From Marinobacter antarcticus (GTDB lineage Bacteria; Pseudomonadota; Gammaproteobacteria; Pseudomonadales; Oleiphilaceae): a stretch of DNA of 64,000 nucleotides. Position 1 is the stretch's first letter, and every line of letters begins with the position of its first letter. Below, piece by piece: positions 24,951 through 44,449 of this stretch. Below the pieces are notes generated by a model. The model did no database searches. It was not told the origin of the DNA and worked only from the letters and a program-made list of their open reading frames with translations. Location of the stretch: positions 1 through 64,000 of the forward strand of contig NZ_DRGY01000033.1 in assembly GCF_011049865.1 (NCBI RefSeq), given 5' to 3'. A program made the position numbers and the translations under genes.

Positions 24951-24997
24951 AAAGCTGCCTAAAGCTGCCTAAAGCTGCCTAAAGCTGCCTAAAGCTG
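24951..24997. repeat. Short tandem repeat, 10-bp unit, about 4.7 copies
   Basis: AAAGCTGCCT occurs four times in direct succession (24951-24990), followed by a partial copy (24991-24997). The stop codon of astB (24989-24991, minus strand) lies at the junction with the last, partial copy, so copy-number change would alter the 3' untranslated region or, if it touched the last copy, the C terminus. Confidence 0.9.
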
Positions 24998-26329
24998 AAA
25001 ATCGTAAATCGAGCCCAGCGCCAGAATGCCCGTTAACTCATCCAGCGCCTTGCGAACTTCATCCAGCAGCATCGGATCAGCAAGATCTTCCCGCGCCAAC
25101 CGGTCACGATAATGGGCTCCCACCCAGGTTGTGAGACGCTCGTAAAGACGATCCGTTAGAATCACACCGCGATGCATCGCCTGCAGCTCTTCATCGTTCA
25201 GAACCACGCGCAACCGCAGGCACGCGGGGCCACCGCCGTTGCGCATGGATTGCTTCACATCAAACACTTCCACTGCGGTAATCGGCCCACCGGCGGCCAA
25301 CAGCTTATCCAGATACTGGCTCACCGAGGCCACTTCCCGGCACTCACCCGGAACGGCCAGCAGCATGCCATCCGGCGTGTTCAGCAGTTGGCTGTTGAAC
25401 AGATATGAGGCCACTGCGTCGTTAAGTGGCACGTCTTCGCTGCTCACACGAACGGCCTCAAAATCAGCCCCGATCAGGCGTGAACGGATGTCTGCCAGTA
25501 TTTGCTCTTCGTTCAGGAACGCCATGCTGTGATAGAACAGGGTGTTGCCGTTGCCCACCGCAATAACGTCATTATGGAACACGCCGGCATCAATAGACGC
25601 CGGGTTCTGCTGGGCAAATACCAGGTTTTTGTCTCTCAGCCCGTGCAGTCGGGCGATGGCTTGAGAGGCTTCCAGAGTTTGCCTGGCGGGATATCGTTTC
25701 GGCGCCGGTGCGCGTTCGTTAAACGCAACCTGACCATAAACAAACAGCTCTACCCCTGGCTCGCCATAGCGGCCGCAAAGCCGGGTGTGGTTGGCCGCGC
25801 CTTCGTCACCAAAATGGCTGCCCAAAGGCAGCGCAGGATGATGGGCAAAATAGGCCTCATCCGCGAAGATAGATTTCAGCGAACGGCCGGTCACGGTATG
25901 TTCAATGGAACGATGAAACTTGGCACTCAGATTGGCAGGGGTAAAGTGCACCCGATGATCTGTGGTATCGGAGCTGGGTGAAACGGTTGCCGCATTGGCC
26001 GTCCACATCGAAGAAGCAGAAGAGACAGCCGCAAGAACGGAGGGACTGGATTTTGCAGCCTGCGCCAGTATCTGCGCATCCGTGCCGCTGAACCCGAGTG
26101 CTTTGAGAGAAGGAATATGAGGGCGCTCGTGGGGAGGAAGAATGCCCTGAACGTAACCACGATCGGCCAGACGCTTCATTTTTGCCAACCCTTGAAGCGC
26201 CGCTTCCCGAGGGTTTGACACTGCGTTCACATTGGATTTAGACGCCACATTACCCCAGGACAAGCCCGCGTAATTGTGGGTAGGGCCAACCAGGCCATCA
26301 AAATTCGCTTCTACCGCATGCTTTGCCAT
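24989..26329 (-). CDS. astB: N-succinylarginine dihydrolase AstB
   Basis: 446 aa. AstB is the second AST enzyme: it hydrolyses N2-succinylarginine to succinylornithine, CO2 and two ammonia. The start at 26329 gives the family N terminus ([20 protein letters not shown]) and matches the known length; an ATG at 26374, overlapping the astD stop, would add 15 residues. Conserved features include [20 protein letters not shown] and [15 protein letters not shown], containing the His and the active-site Cys. The 3' end runs into the 10-bp tandem repeat. Confidence 0.94.
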
Positions 26330-26366
26330 GACTTCGGGTTCCGTCTGTCCGACTTTAGAAGAAAAC

Positions 26367-28940
<2,574 letters not shown>

Positions 28941-28947
<7 letters not shown>

Positions 28948-29969
28948 GGCGCTACCCTCACCTCATCACCCGCTGTTTTGCCCAGCACCTCCCAAATACC
29001 CACAGACACCTTGACCGGACCCTCGAGCGTGTCGGCAACACGGGCCAGGGTACACCGGAATCCGGCGCCGTCACCGGCGCATATCAGGCAGGTATCGCCA
29101 CCGTCTTCGGTGGTTCCGTGAAGGGTTCTGGATTGGCTGGTAACCAGCGTATGCAGAGCATCGGTTCGTGCTTCGAGCACGGGGCCGGCATCAAAAATAT
29201 CCAGATAACACCCCGCCTGAAAGCCTTCCCTGTGCAGCAGCTCAAAATTCGGCACGGTCAATTCATGGGGTTTGCCAAGCGCTGCCTGGGCCGCATCTGA
29301 AAGCAGGGTGACATAAACAGGATTGGGCGGCATGAGCTCCGCAATAAACGTTTTGCTGAGCGTGCCTGAGTGCTGGTCCGCCGTTTCAAAATCCATATCA
29401 AAAAAATGGCGCCCCAGACTGTTCCAGAACGGGACGCTGCCATCCGGACATTGAACACCCTGAATTTCGACCACGGCGTGCGCGCTGAACCATCTGCGAT
29501 GGCTGGCGATGAAAAGAATCCGGGCTCTCGATAACAGCTCAAAGGCGTCGGTGTTGCGCAACTCGGGCGTAATCGAAAATGAACACAGTAGCGTGTGATC
29601 GGTCAGTGCGTGGCTGGGATACAGAACCTCCACCCGGCTGGAAATGCCAAGTTCATGAGACGCGTGAATGAGCGCATCGCGGCGATAGTTGTAGAACGGC
29701 TGGCCATTGCCTGCCCGGGCGTCAATGCCCGCCGTGCCGTGAACCTTGCCTGTGACCGTATCTTCCAGCACAAACAGAAACCGCTGAGGCCTGTCACCGG
29801 CGGTCATTTTACCGGCGAGAGACGTCAGCGAGTGCTCTATTTTTTCCGCAAGCGCGGCCTGTTGCCTGGGCAACGTGGATGACAGGCGAGCGGCTTCAGT
29901 GCCGGCCGTGCCTGCAATCTCAAGTATCTGGTTTACGTCATCCGGTAAGGCCGGGCGTACCAGCCACAT
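28941..29969 (-). CDS. aruF: Arginine N-succinyltransferase, alpha subunit type (AruF)
   Basis: 342 aa, a paralogue of the next gene with the same block order: VRPALPDDVNQILEIA, PFYNYRRD, LGRHFFDMDFETADQHSG and SKTFIAELMPPNPVYV. E. coli has one AstA; Pseudomonas has the AruF/AruG pair, so this locus is of the pseudomonad type. It lies 8 bp after astC. Assignment of alpha and beta rests on gene order. Confidence 0.9.
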
Positions 29970-29977
29970 AAAAGCTC

Positions 29978-31192
29978 CTAGGCTGTGAGTGTCTTCACGG
30001 CCGCCTCAAAGCGCTCAAGCGCCTCATCAATATCGGCATCCGGAATAATCAGCGAAGGCGCCAGTCGAATCACATTGGGGCCTGCGATCAGCACCATCAC
30101 TCCCTCATCCAGGCCTGCGTTCAGGAATTCCTTGGCTCTTCCCTGCCATTTTTCGGTCAGCACGCAGCCCAGCAAAAGACCCGCTCCGCGAACCTCGCTG
30201 AATATTCCGTAACGCTCGCCTAAATCCATCATGCCTTTGCGCAGATGATCAGAACGGACCTTCACACCCTTGAGGATCTCTGGCTGGCTCACCGTGTCGA
30301 TCACCTTCTGGGCAACCGCGCAAGCCAGCGCGTTGCCGCCGTATGTGCTGCCGTGGGTGCCTACGCCAAGACTGGCCGCAATGTTTGCGGTGGTTAGCAT
30401 GGCCGCTACCGGAAACCCACCGCCCAGGCCTTTGGCGCTGGTTAGAATGTCCGGCACAACTCCGTACATCTGGTACGCATAAAGATGGCCGGTGCGGCCC
30501 ACACCAGACTGAACTTCATCGAAAACAAGCAGTGCATCGTGATCGTCGCAGAGCTGACGCAAACCTTTCAGAAACTCGAGGTCACCGGGTACCACACCGC
30601 TTTCGCCCTGAATCGGCTCAACCACCACCGCGCAGGTTTTTTCCTTCGAGATCAATTTTCTGACGGATTCCAGATCATTGAAGTCGGCGTGGTGAATGCC
30701 GCCCGGCGCCGGCTCAAATCCTTCGAGGTATTTGGGCTGGCCGCCAACACTCACGGTAAACAGCGTGCGGCCATGGAAGGCGCCCTTAAAGGAAATGATC
30801 TCGTGCTTTTCTGGCCCGGAGTGTTCCCACGCATACCGGCGCACCAGTTTGAAAGCCGCTTCGTTGGCCTCGCCTCCGGAGTTGGCAAAAAACACCCGCT
30901 CCGCAAAGGTAAGATCACACAAGGTTTTCGCCAGGCGCAAAGCCGGCTCGTTGGTCATCACGTTGGAAAGGTGCCAGATTTTCTCTGATTGTTCCTGCAG
31001 AGCCCCAATCAGCCCAGGGTGTGAATGCCCCAGGCAATTCACGGCAATGCCGCCCTGAAGATCTATAAACTCGCGCCCCTCCTGATCCCAGATTCGGGAA
31101 CCCTCGCCTCGCACCGGAATAATCGAACCGGGGGCGTAATTGGGCACCATGACGTCATCAAAAAGCTCGCGGCTGACAGGTTCTTTGTTCAT
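29978..31192 (-). CDS. astC: Succinylornithine transaminase AstC (AruC-like)
   Basis: 404 aa PLP-dependent class-III aminotransferase. It moves the delta-amino group of succinylornithine to 2-oxoglutarate and may also act in arginine synthesis (ArgD activity). The Schiff-base Lys is in [13 protein letters not shown], with [15 protein letters not shown] upstream of it. It is the first gene of the leftward ast operon. Confidence 0.93.
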
Positions 31193-36209: not shown

Positions 36210-38873
36210 TTAGCTTTGCGCCGGGTTCGGTTTGTTGCGATCGATTCCGTACTTGCGCATGGCGTCGAGAACCTGCTCTTCCTTGATCTCGCCGTCTTTG
36301 GCCAGAGCAGACAAGGCGGTTACGGTTACGTGATAACGATCCACCTCAAAGAAACTGCGCAACTTCTCCCGCGTATCACTGCGGCCGAAGCCGTCTGTTC
36401 CGAGGGTAAGGAACGTTTTCGGGATAAATCCACGCAACTGATCGGAGTGCAGCTTGATGTAGTCCGTGGCGGACACAACCGGGCCGGTTTGGGCTTCCAA
36501 ACACTTGGTGACGTAAGCGGTACGGCCTTTGTCGTCCGGGTGTAGCAGGTTCCAGCGCTCAACGTGCTGCCCATCACGGGCCAGTTCGTTATAGCTGGTC
36601 ACGCTCCACACATCCGACGCCACGCCCCAGTCATCTTTCAGCATTTGAGCCGCTGCGCGAACCTCGTTCATGATGGCGCCGGCGCTCAACAACTGCACGC
36701 GCAACTTTTTCTTGGCGCCTTTCACTTCTACCGACTCGAACTTGTACATGCCTTTGATGATGCCGTCTTCACATCCCTTGGGCATAGCGGGGTGTTCGTA
36801 GTTCTCATTTTCCATGGTGATGTAGTAGAAAACGTTTTTGTTTTCTTCAAACATTTCCTTCATGCCATGGTGAATGATCACCGCCATTTCATAACCGTAA
36901 GACGGGTCATAAGCTCTGCAGTTCGGGATGGTGTTGGCCAGAATGTGGCTGTGGCCATCCTGGTGCTGCAGGCCTTCACCGTTGAGAGTAGTCCTGCCCG
37001 CGGTACCGCCAATCAGGAAGCCCCGCGCCTGCATGTCGCCGGAAGCCCAGGCCAGGTCGCCAACGCGCTGAAAACCAAACATGGAATAAAACGCGTAGAA
37101 CGGAATCAGCGGGAAATTGTTGGTGCTGTAGGAGGTTGCAGCCGCCATCCACGCGGCCATGGCGCCGCCCTCGTTAATACCTTCTTGCAGAATCTGGCCT
37201 TTTTTGTCCTCACGGTAATACATAATCTGATCACGATCCTGAGGCACGTATTTCTGGCCTTCGGCGGTATAAATGCCGAGTTGCCGGAACATGCCCTCCA
37301 TACCAAACGTGCGGGCTTCATCCGGAACGATCGGCACGACACGCTTACCAATGCGCTTGTCTTTGACCAGCGCGTTCAGCAGGCGAACAAATACCATGGT
37401 CAGGGAGATTTCCCGGCCGTTTGAGCCGTCCAGAACCTGCTTGAAAATATTCAGCTCGGGAATTTTCAGGGGCTGACTGTCCTTACGGCGCCGGGGATAG
37501 AAACCTCCCAACTCTTGGCGACGCTTCTTCATGTATACCAACTCGGGGCTATCGGGCGCCGGGCGGTAGTAGGGTGCGCTCTCGAGCTCTTCGTCTTTTA
37601 GCGGGATCGCAAAGCGGTCACGGAACGCCTTCAGAGTATCAAGATCCAGTTTTTTCAGAGAGTGCGCCGTATTCTGGGACTCACCCGCCGCGCCAAAGCC
37701 ATAGCCTTTGATGGTGTGAGCAAGAATTACCGTTGGCTTACCGTTGGTCTCGGTTGCGGCCTTTTGATAGGCAGCATAAACCTTATAAGGATCGTGACCA
37801 CCGCGATTCAGCTTGTTGATGTCGTCATCTGACCAGCCTTCGACCAGCTTGGCCATCTGGGGGTACTTGCCGAAGAAATGCTTGCGGGTATGCGCGGGGC
37901 CATTGTGGGTAAAGTTCTGCAAATCACCGTCACAGATTTCATCCATGGCCCGCTGCATAACGCCGTTCTCATCCTGATCAAACAGAGTGTCCCACACCCG
38001 GCCCCAAACCACTTTGATAACGTTCCAGCCGGCACCACGGAATGCTCCCTCCAGCTCCTGGATAATCTTGCCGTTACCGCGCACCGGTCCGTCCAGGCGC
38101 TGCAGGTTACAGTTCACCACAAACACCAGGTTATCGAGATTTTCGCGGCCGGCCTTGGAAATACACCCCAGGGTTTCAGGTTCGTCGGTTTCGCCATCAC
38201 CCACAAAACACCAGACTTTACGATTACCCATTTCAATGAGTTCGCGGCCATCCAGATACTTCATTATGTGGGCCTGATAAATGGCCTGAATTGGCCCAAG
38301 CCCCATGGATACCGTGGGGAACTGCCAGTAATCCGGCATCAGCCAAGGATGCGGATAGGAAGACAGCCCGTCGCCATCCACCTCCTCACGATATTTATCG
38401 AGCTGCGCTTCGGTGAATCGCCCCTCCAAAAAGGAGCGCGCATAATTACCCGGTGACGCGTGACCCTGGAAATAGACCAGGTCGGACTCACGCTTTTCAT
38501 CACCACCGTGGAAGAAATAGTTAAAACCTACGTCGTAAAGCGTTGCTGCAGACGAGAAGGTGGAAACATGGCCACCAAGATCACCCGGACGCTTGTTTGC
38601 ACGTACGACCATCGCCATGGCGTTCCAGCGAATCAAAGAACGAATCCGGCGTTCCATAAACAGGTCACCCGGCATACGAGCTTCCTGTGCAGCCGGAATT
38701 GTGTTCCGGAACGGTGTCGTGATCGAATAAGGCAGCTCGGTGCCATCCCGGCTTGCGCGCTCAGAGAGCCGCTCCAGAATGTACTTTACCCGGTCAATAC
38801 CTTCGTTTTCGATCAGTGACTCGAGCGCATCAAGCCATTCACCGGTTTCAATGGGATCATCATCCTGGTACAT
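36210..38873 (-). CDS. aceE: Pyruvate dehydrogenase E1 component AceE (homodimeric)
   Basis: 887 aa, the usual length for homodimeric E1. It decarboxylates pyruvate with thiamine diphosphate and acetylates the lipoyl groups of AceF. The ThDP motif GDGETDEPE...VVNCN lies at about residues 227-257. The ATG at 38871-38873 is preceded by GGGGGAGG; a TTG one codon earlier is less likely. It heads the aceE-aceF operon. The upstream 641-bp spacer contains several inverted repeats, one of them a perfect 17-bp palindrome. Confidence 0.96.
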   Translation of the reverse strand: MYQDDDPIETGEWLDALESLIENEGIDRVKYILERLSERASRDGTELPYSITTPFRNTIPAAQEARMPGDLFMERRIRSLIRWNAMAMVVRANKRPGDLGGHVSTFSSAATLYDVGFNYFFHGGDEKRESDLVYFQGHASPGNYARSFLEGRFTEAQLDKYREEVDGDGLSSYPHPWLMPDYWQFPTVSMGLGPIQAIYQAHIMKYLDGRELIEMGNRKVWCFVGDGETDEPETLGCISKAGRENLDNLVFVVNCNLQRLDGPVRGNGKIIQELEGAFRGAGWNVIKVVWGRVWDTLFDQDENGVMQRAMDEICDGDLQNFTHNGPAHTRKHFFGKYPQMAKLVEGWSDDDINKLNRGGHDPYKVYAAYQKAATETNGKPTVILAHTIKGYGFGAAGESQNTAHSLKKLDLDTLKAFRDRFAIPLKDEELESAPYYRPAPDSPELVYMKKRRQELGGFYPRRRKDSQPLKIPELNIFKQVLDGSNGREISLTMVFVRLLNALVKDKRIGKRVVPIVPDEARTFGMEGMFRQLGIYTAEGQKYVPQDRDQIMYYREDKKGQILQEGINEGGAMAAWMAAATSYSTNNFPLIPFYAFYSMFGFQRVGDLAWASGDMQARGFLIGGTAGRTTLNGEGLQHQDGHSHILANTIPNCRAYDPSYGYEMAVIIHHGMKEMFEENKNVFYYITMENENYEHPAMPKGCEDGIIKGMYKFESVEVKGAKKKLRVQLLSAGAIMNEVRAAAQMLKDDWGVASDVWSVTSYNELARDGQHVERWNLLHPDDKGRTAYVTKCLEAQTGPVVSATDYIKLHSDQLRGFIPKTFLTLGTDGFGRSDTREKLRSFFEVDRYHVTVTALSALAKDGEIKEEQVLDAMRKYGIDRNKPNPAQS

Positions 38874-39403
38874 CAAACCTCCCCCTTCACATCAAAAAAA
38901 TGCAGCAGGTGCCGAGTTTGGCATCCGCGCTTGCGATATCAGTAAGCTGCATAATGCAGCTGTTTTACTATGGATAGTCTGCCGGACGCAGTGCCGGCTA
39001 ACGGCACTGCTTGTGTTCATCAAGCATAGAACAGCTTTCACCACCCGTCCTTGCTGAACCACCAACTTCTGCCTTGAAACTCCCCGGTCGCACCAAATAT
39101 AATCAAATTCTCGTAGTGTTTTTACTACGCATTACCCATAAATTTGGATCGAAACCCGAGACCTTCCGACAAACCACAAAGATAATTACGATTAGTTACG
39201 TAATAATGCCCTTTTTTCCACCGTCAAACAACCTGACCCCGACCAACGTCTTAGAGCCAGCAGTTCGCCTCTTATCCTTATTGGGCTAAGCATTATAGGC
39301 ATGGGAAATAGCGGTTAAAATTTACACATTCCCAACATCTTCAATAGCTTAAAAACCAAACCAGAAAAATTTACGATCGTCTCTGCCGCTTCTTTTATTA
39401 GAT

Positions 39404-39432
39404 CTGAAACTAAACAGCAATTTATGTATACT
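39404..39432 (+). promoter_or_regulatory. Candidate sigma-70 promoter for the KamA-like gene
   Basis: CTGAAA (39404-39409, 4 of 6) and TATACT (39427-39432, 5 of 6) are separated by 17 bp. Transcription would start near 39439, giving a leader of about 75 bases that contains the hairpin at 39471-39511. Confidence 0.4.
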
Positions 39433-39470
39433 CCTCTGCCGATTTTTTGACCATTGGAGCGGTGTCATTT

Positions 39471-39511
39471 TCGCCCTTCTGCATTTTCAGACTTTCAACC
39501 ACAGAGGGCGA
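39471..39511 (+). promoter_or_regulatory. Leader hairpin that can mask the ribosome-binding site of the KamA-like gene
   Basis: TCGCCCTTCTG (39471-39481) pairs with CAGAGGGCGA (39502-39511) over ten pairs with one bulged T and a 20-base loop. The right arm includes the GAGGG Shine-Dalgarno just before the ATG at 39515. Folding would block initiation, so translation may depend on opening of the stem. No known riboswitch class was recognised. Confidence 0.55.
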
Positions 39512-39514
39512 ACC

Positions 39515-40879
39515 ATGAACTCCATCGTTACCTTTCCCAACCGAATTCCCACCACGGAATTCGAGGAACGACGCTTCAAGGTTTACACAGACCGCCAACT
39601 AGACAAGATTGAGGTTATCCAGAGCCTGCCGGAAGACACCCTGTTTGAAATGAAGGTGGTCGCAAGCGTGTTGCCCTTCCGGGTGAACGAGTATGTGATC
39701 AACGAACTGATCAATTGGGACAAGGTACCCAACGACCCCATCTATCAATTGGTATTCCCGCAGAAAGGCATGCTCAAAGATGAACACTTTGAGCGCATGG
39801 CTCACATGCACCGGGACGGCGCCGATAAAAAAGAGATTCAGGCCGTCGCAAAAGAAATCCGTGATGAGCTAAACCCCCACCCGGCTGGCCAGATGGAAAT
39901 GAATATGCCGGAACTGGAAGGTGAAGTGCTCGACGGCGTGCAACACAAGTACCGCGAGACGGTGCTGTTCTTCCCTGCACAAGGCCAGACATGCCACTCC
40001 TATTGCACCTTCTGCTTCCGCTGGGCGCAGTTCGTGGGCGATAAAGACCTGAAAATGTCGAGTACCGAGGCCGACAAGCTGCACGGTTACTTGCAGGAGC
40101 ACACCGAAGTAACCGATTTGCTGGTGACCGGTGGTGACCCCATGGTGATGAAAACCAAGAGCCTGGCTCAGTACCTTGAGCCGCTATTGCAGCCAGAGTT
40201 CGATCATATTCAAACTATCCGCATCGGCACCAAGGCCCTGACCTTCTGGCCATACCGTTTTGTGACGGACAAGGATGCGAACGAGCTGATTGATCTGTTC
40301 GCAAGACTTGTGGACGCAGGCAAGCACGTTGCGATTATGGCGCATTACAACCACTGGCAGGAAATCACGACCGACATCGCCGAAGAGGCTATCCGCCGCA
40401 TCCGCGCAACCGGAGCGGAGATTCGTGCACAGGGCCCGCTGATCAAACATGTGAACGACAGTGCAGACGCCTGGGCCAGGCTTTGGAAAAAAGAAGTGCA
40501 GCTTGGCATCATCCCCTACTACATGTTTGTAGAGCGTGACACAGGCGCCAAGAACTACTTTGAAGTGCCGCTGGCGGAAGCTTTTGAGATTTATCGCGAA
40601 GCCATGAAAAAAGTCAGCGGTCTGGCTCGCACCGCTCGTGGCCCCAGCATGAGTGCCGGGCCAGGCAAAGTGGAGATACAAGGGATAGCCGATGTGAGCG
40701 GCGAGAAAGTTTTTGTACTGCGCTTTCTACAGGGCCGCAATCCGGACTGGGTTCAGCGCCCGTTCTTTGCCAAGTACAGCGAAACCGCAACCTGGCTGCA
40801 CGAGTTGGAGCCAGCCTTTGGTGAGGAGACGTTTTTCTTTGAAGATGGGTTTGAGCAAATGAAGAAGGGAAATAGCTGA
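39515..40879 (+). CDS. KamA family radical SAM enzyme (lysine 2,3-aminomutase-like)
   Basis: 454 aa. Cys160, Cys164 and Cys167 in TCHSYCTFCFRW form the CxxxCxxC site for the 4Fe-4S cluster that cleaves S-adenosylmethionine. LLVTGGDPM matches the GGEP-type SAM-binding stretch, and GPGKVEIQG is the best candidate for the PLP-lysine region, where classical KamA has GGGGK. The classical CxxxCRHCTRR is changed to CTFCFRW, so the substrate may not be lysine. It is longer than EpmB (about 340 aa), and no EpmA, EF-P or beta-lysine acetyltransferase gene is in the window. It has its own promoter candidate and a strong terminator, so it is probably monocistronic. Confidence 0.85.
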   Translation: MNSIVTFPNRIPTTEFEERRFKVYTDRQLDKIEVIQSLPEDTLFEMKVVASVLPFRVNEYVINELINWDKVPNDPIYQLVFPQKGMLKDEHFERMAHMHRDGADKKEIQAVAKEIRDELNPHPAGQMEMNMPELEGEVLDGVQHKYRETVLFFPAQGQTCHSYCTFCFRWAQFVGDKDLKMSSTEADKLHGYLQEHTEVTDLLVTGGDPMVMKTKSLAQYLEPLLQPEFDHIQTIRIGTKALTFWPYRFVTDKDANELIDLFARLVDAGKHVAIMAHYNHWQEITTDIAEEAIRRIRATGAEIRAQGPLIKHVNDSADAWARLWKKEVQLGIIPYYMFVERDTGAKNYFEVPLAEAFEIYREAMKKVSGLARTARGPSMSAGPGKVEIQGIADVSGEKVFVLRFLQGRNPDWVQRPFFAKYSETATWLHELEPAFGEETFFFEDGFEQMKKGNS

Positions 40880-40904
40880 AGCCTTCCGACTTCAATCGCT
40901 GAAC

Positions 40905-40938
40905 AAAAACGGGGGCGCCGAGAGGCGCCCCCGTTTTT
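40905..40938. terminator. Bidirectional terminator between the KamA-like gene and cnoX
   Basis: A perfect 15-bp stem (40905-40919 with 40924-40938) with a GAGA loop is flanked by A5 and T5, so it can end transcription from both convergent genes. Confidence 0.95.
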
Positions 40939-40957
40939 GTTTCTGACTGATTTACGA

Positions 40958-41833
40958 TCAATGCATCAGCGTATAAAGCTTGCGCCTATAAATACGCACG
41001 TCCGGATTGCTGTTGCCCAGCTTCTCAAATAACTCAACCAGCGTGGTTTTGGCCACCTCATCTTTGTATTTGCTATCTGCCTGCATCAGACGAACCAGTA
41101 ACTCCATCGCATCGGCATTGTTTTCCTGCAACACTCTATGAAGTGCCAGCAGGTGCAAGGCGTTGGGGTCTTTCGGATTCTGTTCCAGCGCCATCTCCAG
41201 ATCCTTTGCGGGCGGAAGCTCTGCAGACTGCTTCAAAAACTTTATTCTGGCCGCCAACTGCTTTGCCTGGTGCTGCAGTTTTTCCTCTGGTGGCAGGCTT
41301 TCAAGCACCTGCTCAGCGGTTTCAAGATCTCCGGATTCAGCTTTCAACTGAGCCAGATCAATCAGCACTTTGAGGTTCTCAGGGTCTTCGCGGTTCATAT
41401 CGGAGAGGATTTCCAGCGCTCCGTCGATATCGCCCTCTTCCCATATTCGATGGGCTTTATCGTAAGAATCTTCCTCAGGAAGCGCTGCGGGCAAACCCAC
41501 ATGCTTCTCCAGCACCTTGCGAATTTCACTTTCTGGCAGCGCTTCGCTAAAACCATCAACCGCCTGGCCATCTTTCACCAGAATAATCGTGGGCAGGCTG
41601 CGTACGCCCAAACTGGCTGTGAGCTCCTGCTGCTCATCCGCATTAACCTTCGCAAGCCGGAATGCCCCCTGATACTCCTGTGCCAATTTTTCCAACACGG
41701 GCATAAGCTGCTTACAGGGCGCGCACCACTCAGCCCATACATCCACAATGACGGGTGCAACCGAGGATGCATCCATGACCTCCTGCTGGAAGTTTTCCAT
41801 GGTGGCTTCAAATATATGGGGAGAACTGCTCAT
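40958..41833 (-). CDS. cnoX: Thioredoxin-TPR co-chaperone CnoX (YbbN-like)
   Basis: About 291 aa. An N-terminal thioredoxin domain with an intact WCAPC active site (residues about 37-41) is followed by TPR-like helices (EGDIDGALEILSDMNREDP and later repeats). CnoX holds oxidised client proteins and delivers them to GroEL or DnaK. E. coli CnoX lacks the CxxC pair, so this version may also be redox-active. The ATG at 41833 is preferred over a GTG three codons upstream. Confidence 0.9.
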   Translation of the reverse strand: MSSSPHIFEATMENFQQEVMDASSVAPVIVDVWAEWCAPCKQLMPVLEKLAQEYQGAFRLAKVNADEQQELTASLGVRSLPTIILVKDGQAVDGFSEALPESEIRKVLEKHVGLPAALPEEDSYDKAHRIWEEGDIDGALEILSDMNREDPENLKVLIDLAQLKAESGDLETAEQVLESLPPEEKLQHQAKQLAARIKFLKQSAELPPAKDLEMALEQNPKDPNALHLLALHRVLQENNADAMELLVRLMQADSKYKDEVAKTTLVELFEKLGNSNPDVRIYRRKLYTLMH

Positions 41834-41998
41834 GTCGGGCACCTGAAATGTTCATTAAGAGTTAAAGCCTAGATGGGGCACGCGGGGCCGGAATTCAAGA
41901 GCGTCAAATCAACGCATTAGTCGCAACTATGCTTGAAAATGGGACTTTAGGCTCTAGTTAGTAAAGAGACACTTCTCCTATCAGGAAGCAGATACGGC

Positions 41999-44449
41999 AT
42001 GAACCACGACAAAGACAGCGACTCGCTGGCAGAGTTCGAAGAAGACCTTACCGAATACATCGGCAAGAACGAACACAGCAAGGATCTTGCCCTCCCCCAG
42101 CAATCCATGCCCAAACGGATGTATGTACTGCCTGTCTCGAACCGGCCTTTTTTTCCGGCACAGGTGCAACCCGTCGTGGTCAACCAGAACCCGTGGCAGG
42201 AAACACTCAAGCGCGTTAGCGAAACCGATCACAAAATGCTCGGCATCTGCTTTGTGGATGATCAGCAGCCCGGGCAGAGGGTGCCCCAGAGCAGTGAGCT
42301 GGCCACCGTTGGCTGCGCAGTGCGCATCCATCACGCGCAAAACAAAGACGGTAATGTTCAGTTTATTGCGCAGGGTTTGCAGCGTTTTCGCATTGTGCAG
42401 TGGTTGCGCCGCAAGCCTCCGTATCTGGTGGAGGTAGAGTACCCGCAAGAGCCTCAGGAAGATGCGGATGAAACCAAGGCCTATACCCTGGCAATCATTA
42501 GTGCGATCAAAGAACTCCTTCGTACCAACCCGCTGTATGGCGAGGAAGTAAAGCAATACCTCTCGCGTTTTGGCCCTGAAGACAGTTCACCGCTGACAGA
42601 TTTTGGCGCCTCCATGACCAGCGTTCCCGGCAAGGAACTGCAGGATATCCTGAACACGGTGCCGTTGCTGAGGCGCATGGAAAAAGTGCTTTTGTTGATG
42701 CGCAAAGAGCTGGAGGTGGCGCGCCTGCAGTCTGAAATCAGCGAAGAAGTGAACGAGAAGGTGCAAAAGCATCAACGTGATTTCTTCCTGAAAGAACAGC
42801 TCAAAGTTATCCAGCGCGAGCTTGGGATGTCGAAAGACGACAAAACGGCAGACGCCGAGCGCTTTGAAACCCGAATGGCCGAGCTCAAGCCCCCAGAGGC
42901 CGTGCAGGAACGATTCGCGGAGGAATTGCAGAAGTTGCAGATTCTGGAACAGGGCTCGCCGGAGTATGGCGTCACCCGCAATTATCTGGACTGGCTGACT
43001 CATGTACCCTGGGGCGTGCACTCCGAAGATCAATTTGATTTGGCCAAGGCCCGCAGCACACTGAACCGCGATCACGACGGCCTTGGCGATGTAAAAGACC
43101 GGATTATCGAATTCCTGGCAGAGGGTACGTTCAAGGGCGAAATCAGCGGGTCCATTCTTCTGCTTGTTGGCCCGCCGGGCGTGGGCAAAACATCAATAGG
43201 CCATTCCGTCGCGGACGCGCTCGGGCGTAAATTCTATCGCTTCAGCGTTGGTGGCATGCGTGACGAAGCCGAGATCAAGGGCCACAGGCGTACTTACATC
43301 GGAGCGATGCCGGGCAAGTTTGTACAGGCTCTGAAAGACACCAAAGTTGCCAACCCCGTCATCATGCTGGACGAGATCGACAAAATTGGCGCCTCTTACC
43401 ACGGCGATCCGGCCTCGGCTCTTCTCGAAACACTCGACCCGGAGCAAAACAAGGAGTTTCTGGACCACTACCTCGATGTTCGCCTGGATCTGTCAAAGGT
43501 ACTGTTTATTTGCACGGCCAACCAGCTAGACACCATTCCGAGACCGCTTCTGGATCGCATGGATGTTATCCGCTTGTCTGGCTATATCGGGGAAGAAAAG
43601 CTGACGATCGCCAAACACCACCTGCTTCCCCGCCTTTTGAAACGGGCCGGGCTTCTGAAAAAGCAGTTCAACATTACCGATGCCGCTATTCGTCAGGTTA
43701 TTGAAGGCTATGCTCGTGAAGCCGGTGTGCGGAGCCTGGAAAAGCTGCTGCACAAGATCATGCGCAAGGGCATCGTGAAACTACTGGAAGCCCCGAATGA
43801 CCCTGTGAGAGTGGGCATATCCGATCTGCAGGAATACCTGGGCCAACCGGCCTTCCGAAAAGAAAAATCACTCAAGGGTACCGGCGTGGTCACGGGTCTC
43901 GCCTGGACGGCCATGGGCGGCGTAACCCTCAGTATAGAAGCCACCCGGGTGCACAACACTCAACGCGGTTTCAAGTTAACCGGGCAGCTTGGCGATGTGA
44001 TGAAAGAATCGGCAGAAATCGCGCACAGCTATGTCAGTTCTAACCTGAAACGCTACAAGGGCGATCCCGGATTTTTCGACAAATCGTTCATACATCTTCA
44101 TGTGCCAGAGGGCGCAACACCCAAAGACGGCCCGAGTGCCGGCGTCACTATGGCAACGGCCCTGTTGTCTATTGCCCGCAGTGAAGTGCCTCAGCAAAAC
44201 ACCGCAATGACCGGAGAATTGACCCTCACCGGACAGGTTCTTCCCGTAGGCGGTATACGCGAGAAAGTCATCGCAGCCCGTCGGCAAAAAATCAGCAATC
44301 TTATTTTGCCAGAAGCGAACCGCGGAGATTATGAGGAGCTACCGGACTATCTCAGGGACGGCCTGACCGTCAACTTCGCCCGGCATTACAACGATGTGTT
44401 TCAGGTGTGCTTTGGCCATAAGCCGAAGACGGGGTCGTCCGTTCACTGA
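41999..44449 (+). CDS. Lon family ATP-dependent protease, probable second Lon
   Basis: 816 aa. A LON substrate-binding N domain (MYVLPVSNRPFFPAQVQPVV is close to its start) is followed by the AAA+ module with Walker A GPPGVGKTS and Walker B MLDEIDKIG, then the S16 protease domain with the catalytic Ser in PKDGPSAGV and Lys in GIREKVIAARR. It degrades unfolded and regulatory proteins. It is not next to clpX or hupB, where the main lon usually is, and its N-terminal motif is divergent, so it is probably a paralogue. AGGAAG precedes the start. Confidence 0.9.
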   Translation: MNHDKDSDSLAEFEEDLTEYIGKNEHSKDLALPQQSMPKRMYVLPVSNRPFFPAQVQPVVVNQNPWQETLKRVSETDHKMLGICFVDDQQPGQRVPQSSELATVGCAVRIHHAQNKDGNVQFIAQGLQRFRIVQWLRRKPPYLVEVEYPQEPQEDADETKAYTLAIISAIKELLRTNPLYGEEVKQYLSRFGPEDSSPLTDFGASMTSVPGKELQDILNTVPLLRRMEKVLLLMRKELEVARLQSEISEEVNEKVQKHQRDFFLKEQLKVIQRELGMSKDDKTADAERFETRMAELKPPEAVQERFAEELQKLQILEQGSPEYGVTRNYLDWLTHVPWGVHSEDQFDLAKARSTLNRDHDGLGDVKDRIIEFLAEGTFKGEISGSILLLVGPPGVGKTSIGHSVADALGRKFYRFSVGGMRDEAEIKGHRRTYIGAMPGKFVQALKDTKVANPVIMLDEIDKIGASYHGDPASALLETLDPEQNKEFLDHYLDVRLDLSKVLFICTANQLDTIPRPLLDRMDVIRLSGYIGEEKLTIAKHHLLPRLLKRAGLLKKQFNITDAAIRQVIEGYAREAGVRSLEKLLHKIMRKGIVKLLEAPNDPVRVGISDLQEYLGQPAFRKEKSLKGTGVVTGLAWTAMGGVTLSIEATRVHNTQRGFKLTGQLGDVMKESAEIAHSYVSSNLKRYKGDPGFFDKSFIHLHVPEGATPKDGPSAGVTMATALLSIARSEVPQQNTAMTGELTLTGQVLPVGGIREKVIAARRQKISNLILPEANRGDYEELPDYLRDGLTVNFARHYNDVFQVCFGHKPKTGSSVH

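Follow-up and report, generated by a model that had tools for sequence, protein, structure and literature searches.

In lysine 2,3-aminomutase (LAM), Arg134 binds the alpha-carboxylate of the substrate, and two aspartates, Asp293 and Asp330, hold the ammonium group of the lysine side chain. The clostridial glutamate 2,3-aminomutase reportedly has Lys and Asn at these two positions (Ruzicka and Frey, 2007), and beta-aminoglutaric acid is said to have been found in marine bacteria by Henrichs and Cuhel in 1985. According to the excerpted text of PMC8269262, beta-glutamate is an osmolyte of methanogens, reaches a reported 730 mM in Nitrosopumilus maritimus and, in two ocean profiles, was reported at higher abundance in deep than in surface water. 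The Na+ riboswitches that are found with the eam (beta-glutamate) genes, as described in part of PMC9337991, provide a precedent for salt control. In Streptomyces, the 3-aminobutyrate of incednine is made via beta-glutamate: IdnL3 accounts for the beta-glutamate decarboxylation, and the preceding conversion of glutamate to beta-glutamate is assigned to IdnL4 by gene disruption, which confirms the involvement of IdnL4, combined with feeding; the activity of IdnL4 was not seen in vitro (PMC11284099, in the portions available). Both IdnL4 and IdnL3 serve as query genes for this class of macrolactams, as stated in an excerpt of PMC10662134. The available portions of PMC8281238, PMC11428151, and PMC8443644 added nothing on beta-glutamate biosynthesis. 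Among the matches listed in the open-licence literature, no title or abstract start dealt with beta-glutamate or a KamA-like enzyme in Marinobacter, and the articles naming an aminomutase together with Marinobacter concerned, by title, heme only.

Here, we describe a KamA-like gene from Marinobacter antarcticus whose product is probably a glutamate 2,3-aminomutase of the IdnL4 type, a radical enzyme that would depend on PLP and SAM. The gene lies in a 64,000-nucleotide stretch of DNA (hereafter, the window) that is part of contig C33; the draft genome measures 3.93 Mb and is 95.5% complete. Its reading frame (39515-40879, forward strand) is open from the ATG to the TGA (Table 1). The best relatives, among the best 80 of at least 591 related stretches (the 80-locus set), are Marinobacter proteins whose full-length identity to the query reaches 96%. 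The gene is under strong purifying selection, with dN/dS of 0.017-0.060 in all eight comparisons with relatives, and in an alignment of 23 rows (A1), 188 of the 460 columns are invariant, and a further 55 reach 90% agreement or more; the low dN/dS and the conserved columns together indicate that the gene is functional.

Table 1. Features of the KamA-like locus (positions in the window)
Feature	Positions	Strand	Basis or remark
Conserved promoter-like block, TTAGATCTGAAA-N17-TATACT (35 bases)	39398..39432	+	Conservation; about 115 bases before the start
KamA-family radical SAM enzyme gene	39515..40879	+	454 aa; predicted IdnL4-type glutamate 2,3-aminomutase
[4Fe-4S]/SAM motif CHSYCTFC + F-R-W, residues 160-170	39992..40024	+	Position arithmetic
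Codon of Arg341, at the LAM Asp293 position	40535..40537	+	60-row alignment
SMSAGPGK, residues 378-385; Ser378 at the LAM Asp330 position, Lys385 at LAM Lys337	40646..40669	+	60-row alignment
Stem-loop and T-run just past the stop codon	40901..40942	+	Fold -37.1 kcal/mol, z -7.9

The AlphaFold2 model of the protein (pLDDT 84.3, pTM 0.86; pLDDT below 50 for residues 1-13, 123-126 and, within the cluster loop, 167-176) has the full-length LAM fold of the KamA-type superfamily. VIA-align matched this model to LAM (2a5h_B) with a Z of 30.5 and an rmsd of 3.2 over 333 residues (query 16-448), the next entry reaching a Z of 13.6, and LAM (2a5h) was also the sole sequence relative found in the PDB with phmmer. 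Foldseek ranked LAM first too, with a TM of 0.57-0.60 by query length and an rmsd of 7.9-8.5, so that the domain placement may differ from that in LAM.

The active site was compared in an alignment of 60 rows: the query, 40 chosen family rows, 3 near rows, and 16 reference rows. The 41 family rows thus consist of the query and 40 sequences picked from the best-80, phylum-level, plasmid, and order-level sets. Fourteen of the 16 reference rows (L152 and L156 being the other two) were scanned with the curated models; by cut-off, 4 are LAM, 2 EpmB, 2 arginine aminomutases, and 1 AblA-like, and the other 5 pass the general KamA model only, one of them lying just under the LAM cut-off. The substrates of the 8 function-assigned reference rows we take to be lysine, the lysine of EF-P, or arginine, all cationic.

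An earlier reading made from the sequence alone (hereafter, the sequence-only reading) described the CxxxCxxC site as intact, and it does read CHSYCTFC, the cysteines C160, C164, and C167 being present in 41/41 family rows. The counterparts of LAM Arg134 and Gln258 (R169 and Q306) are likewise kept in 41/41 family rows, and that of His230 (H277) in 40/41. K385 of the GPGK motif aligns with the PLP lysine of LAM, Lys337, in all 41 family rows, in agreement with the phmmer match to 2a5h, from which we infer PLP binding through K385. The same reading had singled out CFRW in place of CTRR and GPGK in place of GGGGK as pointers to a new substrate. The letters are indeed F-R-W and SAGPGK, but both changes are minor and less unusual than implied: CFR is shared by reference rows of the EpmB and AblA-like kinds, the arginine is kept, and the PLP lysine is in place. 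The two motifs do not themselves indicate a new substrate.

The change that appears to tell the substrate, and that the sequence-only reading missed, is at the LAM Asp293 position. It is occupied by Arg in 41/41 family rows and 3/3 near rows, whereas Asp is found in 16/16 reference rows, although Asp293 is not a proven marker of cationic substrates only, because 7 of these 16 are KamA proteins with no assigned function and an eighth is an AblA-like protein of unknown function. At the Asp330 position, the family rows have Ser (34) or Val (7) and the near rows Ile (2) or Ser (1), vs Asp (12), Glu (2), or Thr (2) in the reference rows. Thus, the family lacks the Asp293 and Asp330 pair expected of a lysine 2,3-aminomutase and combines the loss of the acidic pair with a basic residue at position 293, as would be expected of a glutamate 2,3-aminomutase. 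The invariant Arg in place of Asp293 suggests that the side chain of the substrate is anionic and, together with the Asp330 to Ser/Val replacement, suggests an acidic substrate. The view that the enzyme is an aminomutase with an amino acid substrate different from that of LAM is therefore supported, by residues that the sequence-only reading did not cite.

Under the glutamate 2,3-aminomutase reading, the reaction would proceed in analogy to that of LAM. PLP on Lys385 would form an aldimine with L-glutamate, and the [4Fe-4S] cluster on C160/C164/C167 would cleave SAM to give the 5'-deoxyadenosyl radical, which would abstract the beta-hydrogen; the amino group would then shift from C2 to C3 via a cyclic radical, and beta-glutamate (3-aminoglutarate) would be released. 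The alpha-carboxylate would be bound by R169, like Arg134 in LAM, and the side-chain carboxylate by the invariant Arg341, at the Asp293 position. In Marinobacter, the product would probably build up, or be put to use, as an osmolyte in the form of a stable organic anion, and in actinobacteria it would serve as a building block for natural products; substrate, product, and osmolyte role are all what we infer from the comparisons presented here.

In Streptomyces NBC_00334 (L099), a family member with 51% identity to the Marinobacter protein lies among type I polyketide synthase (PKS) genes, 50 bases from a PLP enzyme of the class I/II aminotransferase fold. The cassette further includes a VinK_C acyltransferase, a stand-alone carrier protein, two AMP-binding enzymes, and a hydrolase of the prolyl-iminopeptidase type (for L099, L165, and L166, VinK_C was identified with Pfam and the other parts from the record annotation and general Pfam domains). 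This set matches the gene set described for beta-amino-acid macrolactams in the available text of PMC11284099, so that a member of the clade, with a PLP enzyme as its neighbor, is found in a starter cassette for such a macrolactam (L099/L165/L166). An Amycolatopsis member (L098) adjoins a PLP enzyme that is 50% identical to the Streptomyces one; no annotated PKS was found within the 19 kb stretch around it. Further members lie beside nonribosomal peptide synthetase (NRPS) genes or, in another case, in a region with NRPS and type III PKS genes. On a Rhodococcus plasmid (L102), the gene is clustered with genes for a lysine/ornithine N-oxygenase, a cupin, and a methionyl-tRNA-synthetase-like protein, a set known from hydrazine-forming pathways. 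The surroundings of a Nocardia member showed no natural-product cluster of this kind. In three of three loci from one bacterial family (L172-L174), the gene shares its last 29-32 bases with a gene for a RimK-like ATP-grasp ligase that follows it, which hints at ligation of the enzyme product.

Several other arrangements were noticed. In 7 Halomonas-type loci (L186 and six Halomonas/Billgrantia loci, with the domains of the binding protein scanned in 3 and those of the permease in 1), the gene is followed, 187-275 bases downstream, by a TAXI-type solute-binding protein and then by a TRAP permease; these loci are orthologous and therefore count as one observation. Two rhizobial plasmid proteins of a neighboring clade (L103 and L114), which likewise have Arg in place of Asp293, are encoded beside ATP-grasp genes, one of them with genes labelled ectB and glutamate 5-kinase nearby, a context that possibly points to a glutamate-derived small molecule. 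The most distant family member, with 42% identity (L167, genome G037), has a SAM-dependent methyltransferase gene 69 bases downstream.

This variety leaves some room for a 2,3-aminomutase acting on another acidic or polar substrate, such as 2-aminoadipate, glutamine, or a glutamyl residue, be it in a peptide or in a glutamate-derived intermediate. Arg341 calls for no more than a side chain that is negatively charged or an acceptor, the natural-product clusters (NRPS, NRPS with type III PKS, and the N-oxygenase cluster of Rhodococcus) are varied, and L172-L174 show the ATP-grasp overlap; nevertheless, we regard such a substrate as rather unlikely, given that the sole context of the family found to have published chemistry, the macrolactam cassette, points to glutamate.

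Less probable still is a KamA-like radical enzyme that is independent of PLP or otherwise repurposed and carries out no 2,3-amino shift. The active site differs from that of LAM beyond the choice of substrate, because the Arg116 position is occupied by Thr in 41/41 family rows (and in 3/3 near rows, vs Arg in 16/16 reference rows) and the Arg112 position by Lys in 41/41 family rows (also in 4/16 reference rows). By the cluster motif, a one-residue insertion, W170, is present in 41/41 family rows and in none of the near or reference rows, and an ERDTGA/GPSMS signature of the family is missing from the reference rows. The failure to observe IdnL4 activity in vitro goes in the same direction. Against such repurposing, the equivalents of Lys337, Gln258, and Arg134 are invariant and that of His230 nearly so, and the genetics and feeding results for IdnL4 fit an aminomutase, as far as the excerpted text of PMC11284099 goes.

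The curated profiles place the protein as kin to all the NCBIfam aminomutase models and, by score, as a member of none. It stays below the cut-off of the KamA family model TIGR00238 (153.4 bits vs 199.2), the LAM model TIGR03820 (126.6 vs 525.4), the AblA-like model (120.2 vs 396.25), the EpmB model TIGR03821 (108 vs 369.3), the clostridial glutamate 2,3-aminomutase model TIGR04368 (96.9 vs 650), and the arginine 2,3-aminomutase model TIGR04468 (87.4 vs 600). A maximum-likelihood tree (52 rows) sets the query apart, together with 33 selected family rows, behind a branch with 100/100 support, and the AblA, EpmB, and arginine-aminomutase rows lie elsewhere; the comparison with LAM and EpmB that the sequence-only reading had proposed thus yields a separate clade, and the grouping with classical lysine 2,3-aminomutase that would have spoken against that reading is not seen. 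Two rhizobial plasmid proteins and one Paenibacillus protein fall between the family and the references, a placement that is unsure, given a long-branch warning and a midpoint root used for drawing. The tree is without the clostridial glutamate 2,3-aminomutase: members of TIGR04368 were sought in 6 plasmid records, 398 Pseudomonadota genomes (E <= 1e-60), and 4 more records, and none reached the cut-off. The clade of the protein thus falls under none of the curated aminomutase models; its one counterpart that has been studied genetically, judged by context, is IdnL4.

Database labels suggest a simpler identity, a lysine 2,3-aminomutase that makes beta-lysine as an osmolyte or for catabolism. 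Plasmid relatives with 48-55% identity come from Burkholderiaceae and Actinomycetota, and 13 of the 19 best plasmid records bear this label; the only PDB sequence relative is LAM as well. We consider this identity very improbable in view of the large shortfall on TIGR03820, the separate clade, the absence of both LAM aspartates from 41/41 rows, and the lack of a match to AblB in the window.

In Marinobacter, the gene is flanked on the 5' side by the pyruvate dehydrogenase E2 and E1 genes on the opposite strand and on the 3' side by a thioredoxin-TPR protein gene (opposite strand), Lon, a MarR regulator, and a periplasmic binding protein. A stem-loop past the stop codon (Table 1) is likely an intrinsic terminator; it was not picked up by the consensus scan. 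When the ORFs of the window were compared with EF-P, EpmA, and EpmB of the genome and with an AblB acetyltransferase (blastp, E <= 0.01), EpmB matched the KamA-like gene only, and EF-P, EpmA, and AblB had no match, in accord with the earlier statement that no such partner is nearby, except that, by eye, arginine N-succinyltransferase-like genes occur some 10 kb off. These belong to what looks like an ast-type (arginine succinyltransferase) operon at 24989-31192 on the reverse strand; no tie to the KamA-like gene was seen. Nor did the window contain a match to the PLP enzyme found in the Streptomyces cassette. The neighborhoods of 51 chosen loci, clustered with a crude gene caller that gave no target row in 3 of the 51, contained no conserved partner gene in Marinobacter and none common to several clades; response regulators recurring in 5 loci looked, by eye, like different regulators. 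The description of the gene as stand-alone consequently holds for Marinobacter, but not for some of the other hosts, which have likely partners.

That the enzyme is a second EpmB, with EF-P or some other protein of translation as its target, is extremely unlikely, even though the C-F-R motif is shared with EpmB: the protein scores 108 bits on the EpmB model, is longer than the EpmB of the genome (454 vs 344 aa), as the sequence-only reading had noted, and the genome has a true EpmB (455.5 bits, cut-off 369.3) grouped on contig C138 with EF-P (237.3, cut-off 185.8) and EpmA (379, cut-off 286.9). Lysine aminomutase, EpmB, and arginine aminomutase were thus rejected as identities on model scores, tree, and residues.

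The block upstream of the gene (Table 1) is conserved across Marinobacter. The motif TTAGAYCTGAAA-N17-TATACT occurs once in the draft genome, and TTAGAYCTGAAA is present without mismatch in 58 of 65 loci (L003-L066 and L074, nearly all Marinobacter); among the 7 misses, L054 has 3 mismatches, L055 has 4, and L060 has no site better than 5. The remaining 15 of the best 80 loci, outside the Marinobacter group, have no exact copy. In an alignment of 24 upstream regions, the conserved parts are this block, the bases right after it, and the ribosome-binding region. A plain consensus scan does detect the site at 39398..39432, but it found 2 promoter-like sites vs 1.8 expected in shuffles, so that the case for a promoter rests on conservation. 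Near the ectoine genes (8.5 kb around ectC), the best match to the motif was a single site with 3 mismatches, and a riboswitch search of 38000-42500 returned 9 Rfam matches up to E 5, with none at the gathering score. Seven Halomonas/Billgrantia loci (L073, L075, L076, L077, L079, L081, and L082) share an upstream block of another kind, in which GTTGCAA-like words recur.

The gene was found in 54 of 390 genomes of an order-level sample (E <= 1e-40), these 54 including its own genome and 15 others of the same genus, and in 13 of 398 genomes of a phylum-level sample (E <= 1e-60, own genome counted). No Marinobacter genome lacking it was seen among the 20 of 336 non-carriers listed, with other genera listed first; in two other genera of the same family, it is present in one genome (G563) and absent from another (G721). 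By these counts, the gene is regularly present in Marinobacter and scattered beyond it. In the list of the best 80 loci, which is biased by closeness to the query, the hosts given by name are largely Marinobacter, Halomonas, Billgrantia, Ectothiorhodospira, Thioalkalivibrio, and Tamilnaduibacter, six genera that we take to inhabit saline, marine, or haloalkaline environments. Soil actinobacteria carry the gene too, often within natural-product clusters. At the order level, ectoine synthase is encoded in 44 of the 54 carriers of the gene and in 157 of the 336 non-carriers (odds ratio 5.0, uncorrected for kinship); with the own family left out, the counts are 27/37 and 156/335 (odds ratio 3.1, also uncorrected). 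This co-occurrence, weaker once the own family is removed, is suggestive only.

A role as a source of an osmolyte, with beta-glutamate as the candidate, is plausible on indirect evidence. A broader proposal, which we offer tentatively and with considerable doubt, is that the family is a second, so far unrecognized lineage of glutamate 2,3-aminomutases that would let aerobic Gammaproteobacteria of marine and halophilic habit (Marinobacter and some Halomonas, Billgrantia, Ectothiorhodospira, and Thioalkalivibrio) make the compatible solute beta-glutamate in one step under salt control and would thereby supply part of the oceanic beta-glutamate, with actinobacteria using the same enzyme for antibiotics. 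A Marinobacter gene for beta-glutamate would name a bacterial source of this compound and correct the common label 'lysine 2,3-aminomutase'. The family would then also let the Asp293 to Arg substrate switch be tested directly, and its orthologs would be new material for looking again for the activity of IdnL4.

Compared with known systems, the protein shares with EpmB the KamA superfamily and the CFR motif, and differs from it in belonging to a separate clade, in the Arg at the Asp293 position, and in its greater length, with EpmB itself encoded elsewhere in the genome. The clostridial glutamate 2,3-aminomutase (TIGR04368), compared here by model score, has the reaction proposed for the protein and reportedly replaces the same two aspartates, by Lys and Asn; if the predicted function is right, the gap between the score and the cut-off makes the protein a separate lineage. 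LAM (AblA/KamA, 2a5h) has in common with it the whole fold, the cluster motif, and the equivalents of Arg134, His230, Gln258, and the PLP lysine Lys337, and is distinguished by Asp293 (here Arg), Asp330 (here Ser), Arg116 (here Thr), the absence of the inserted Trp, and an identity of about 21% over the structural alignment. IdnL4, the predicted glutamate 2,3-aminomutase of the incednine pathway in Streptomyces, is a radical SAM enzyme predicted to depend on PLP (in the portions of the source available), like the KamA-like protein; the likeness is one of gene context, in that the Streptomyces relative L099 holds the place of IdnL4 beside a PLP enzyme, whereas the gene in Marinobacter has no partner and is preceded by a promoter-like block of its own.
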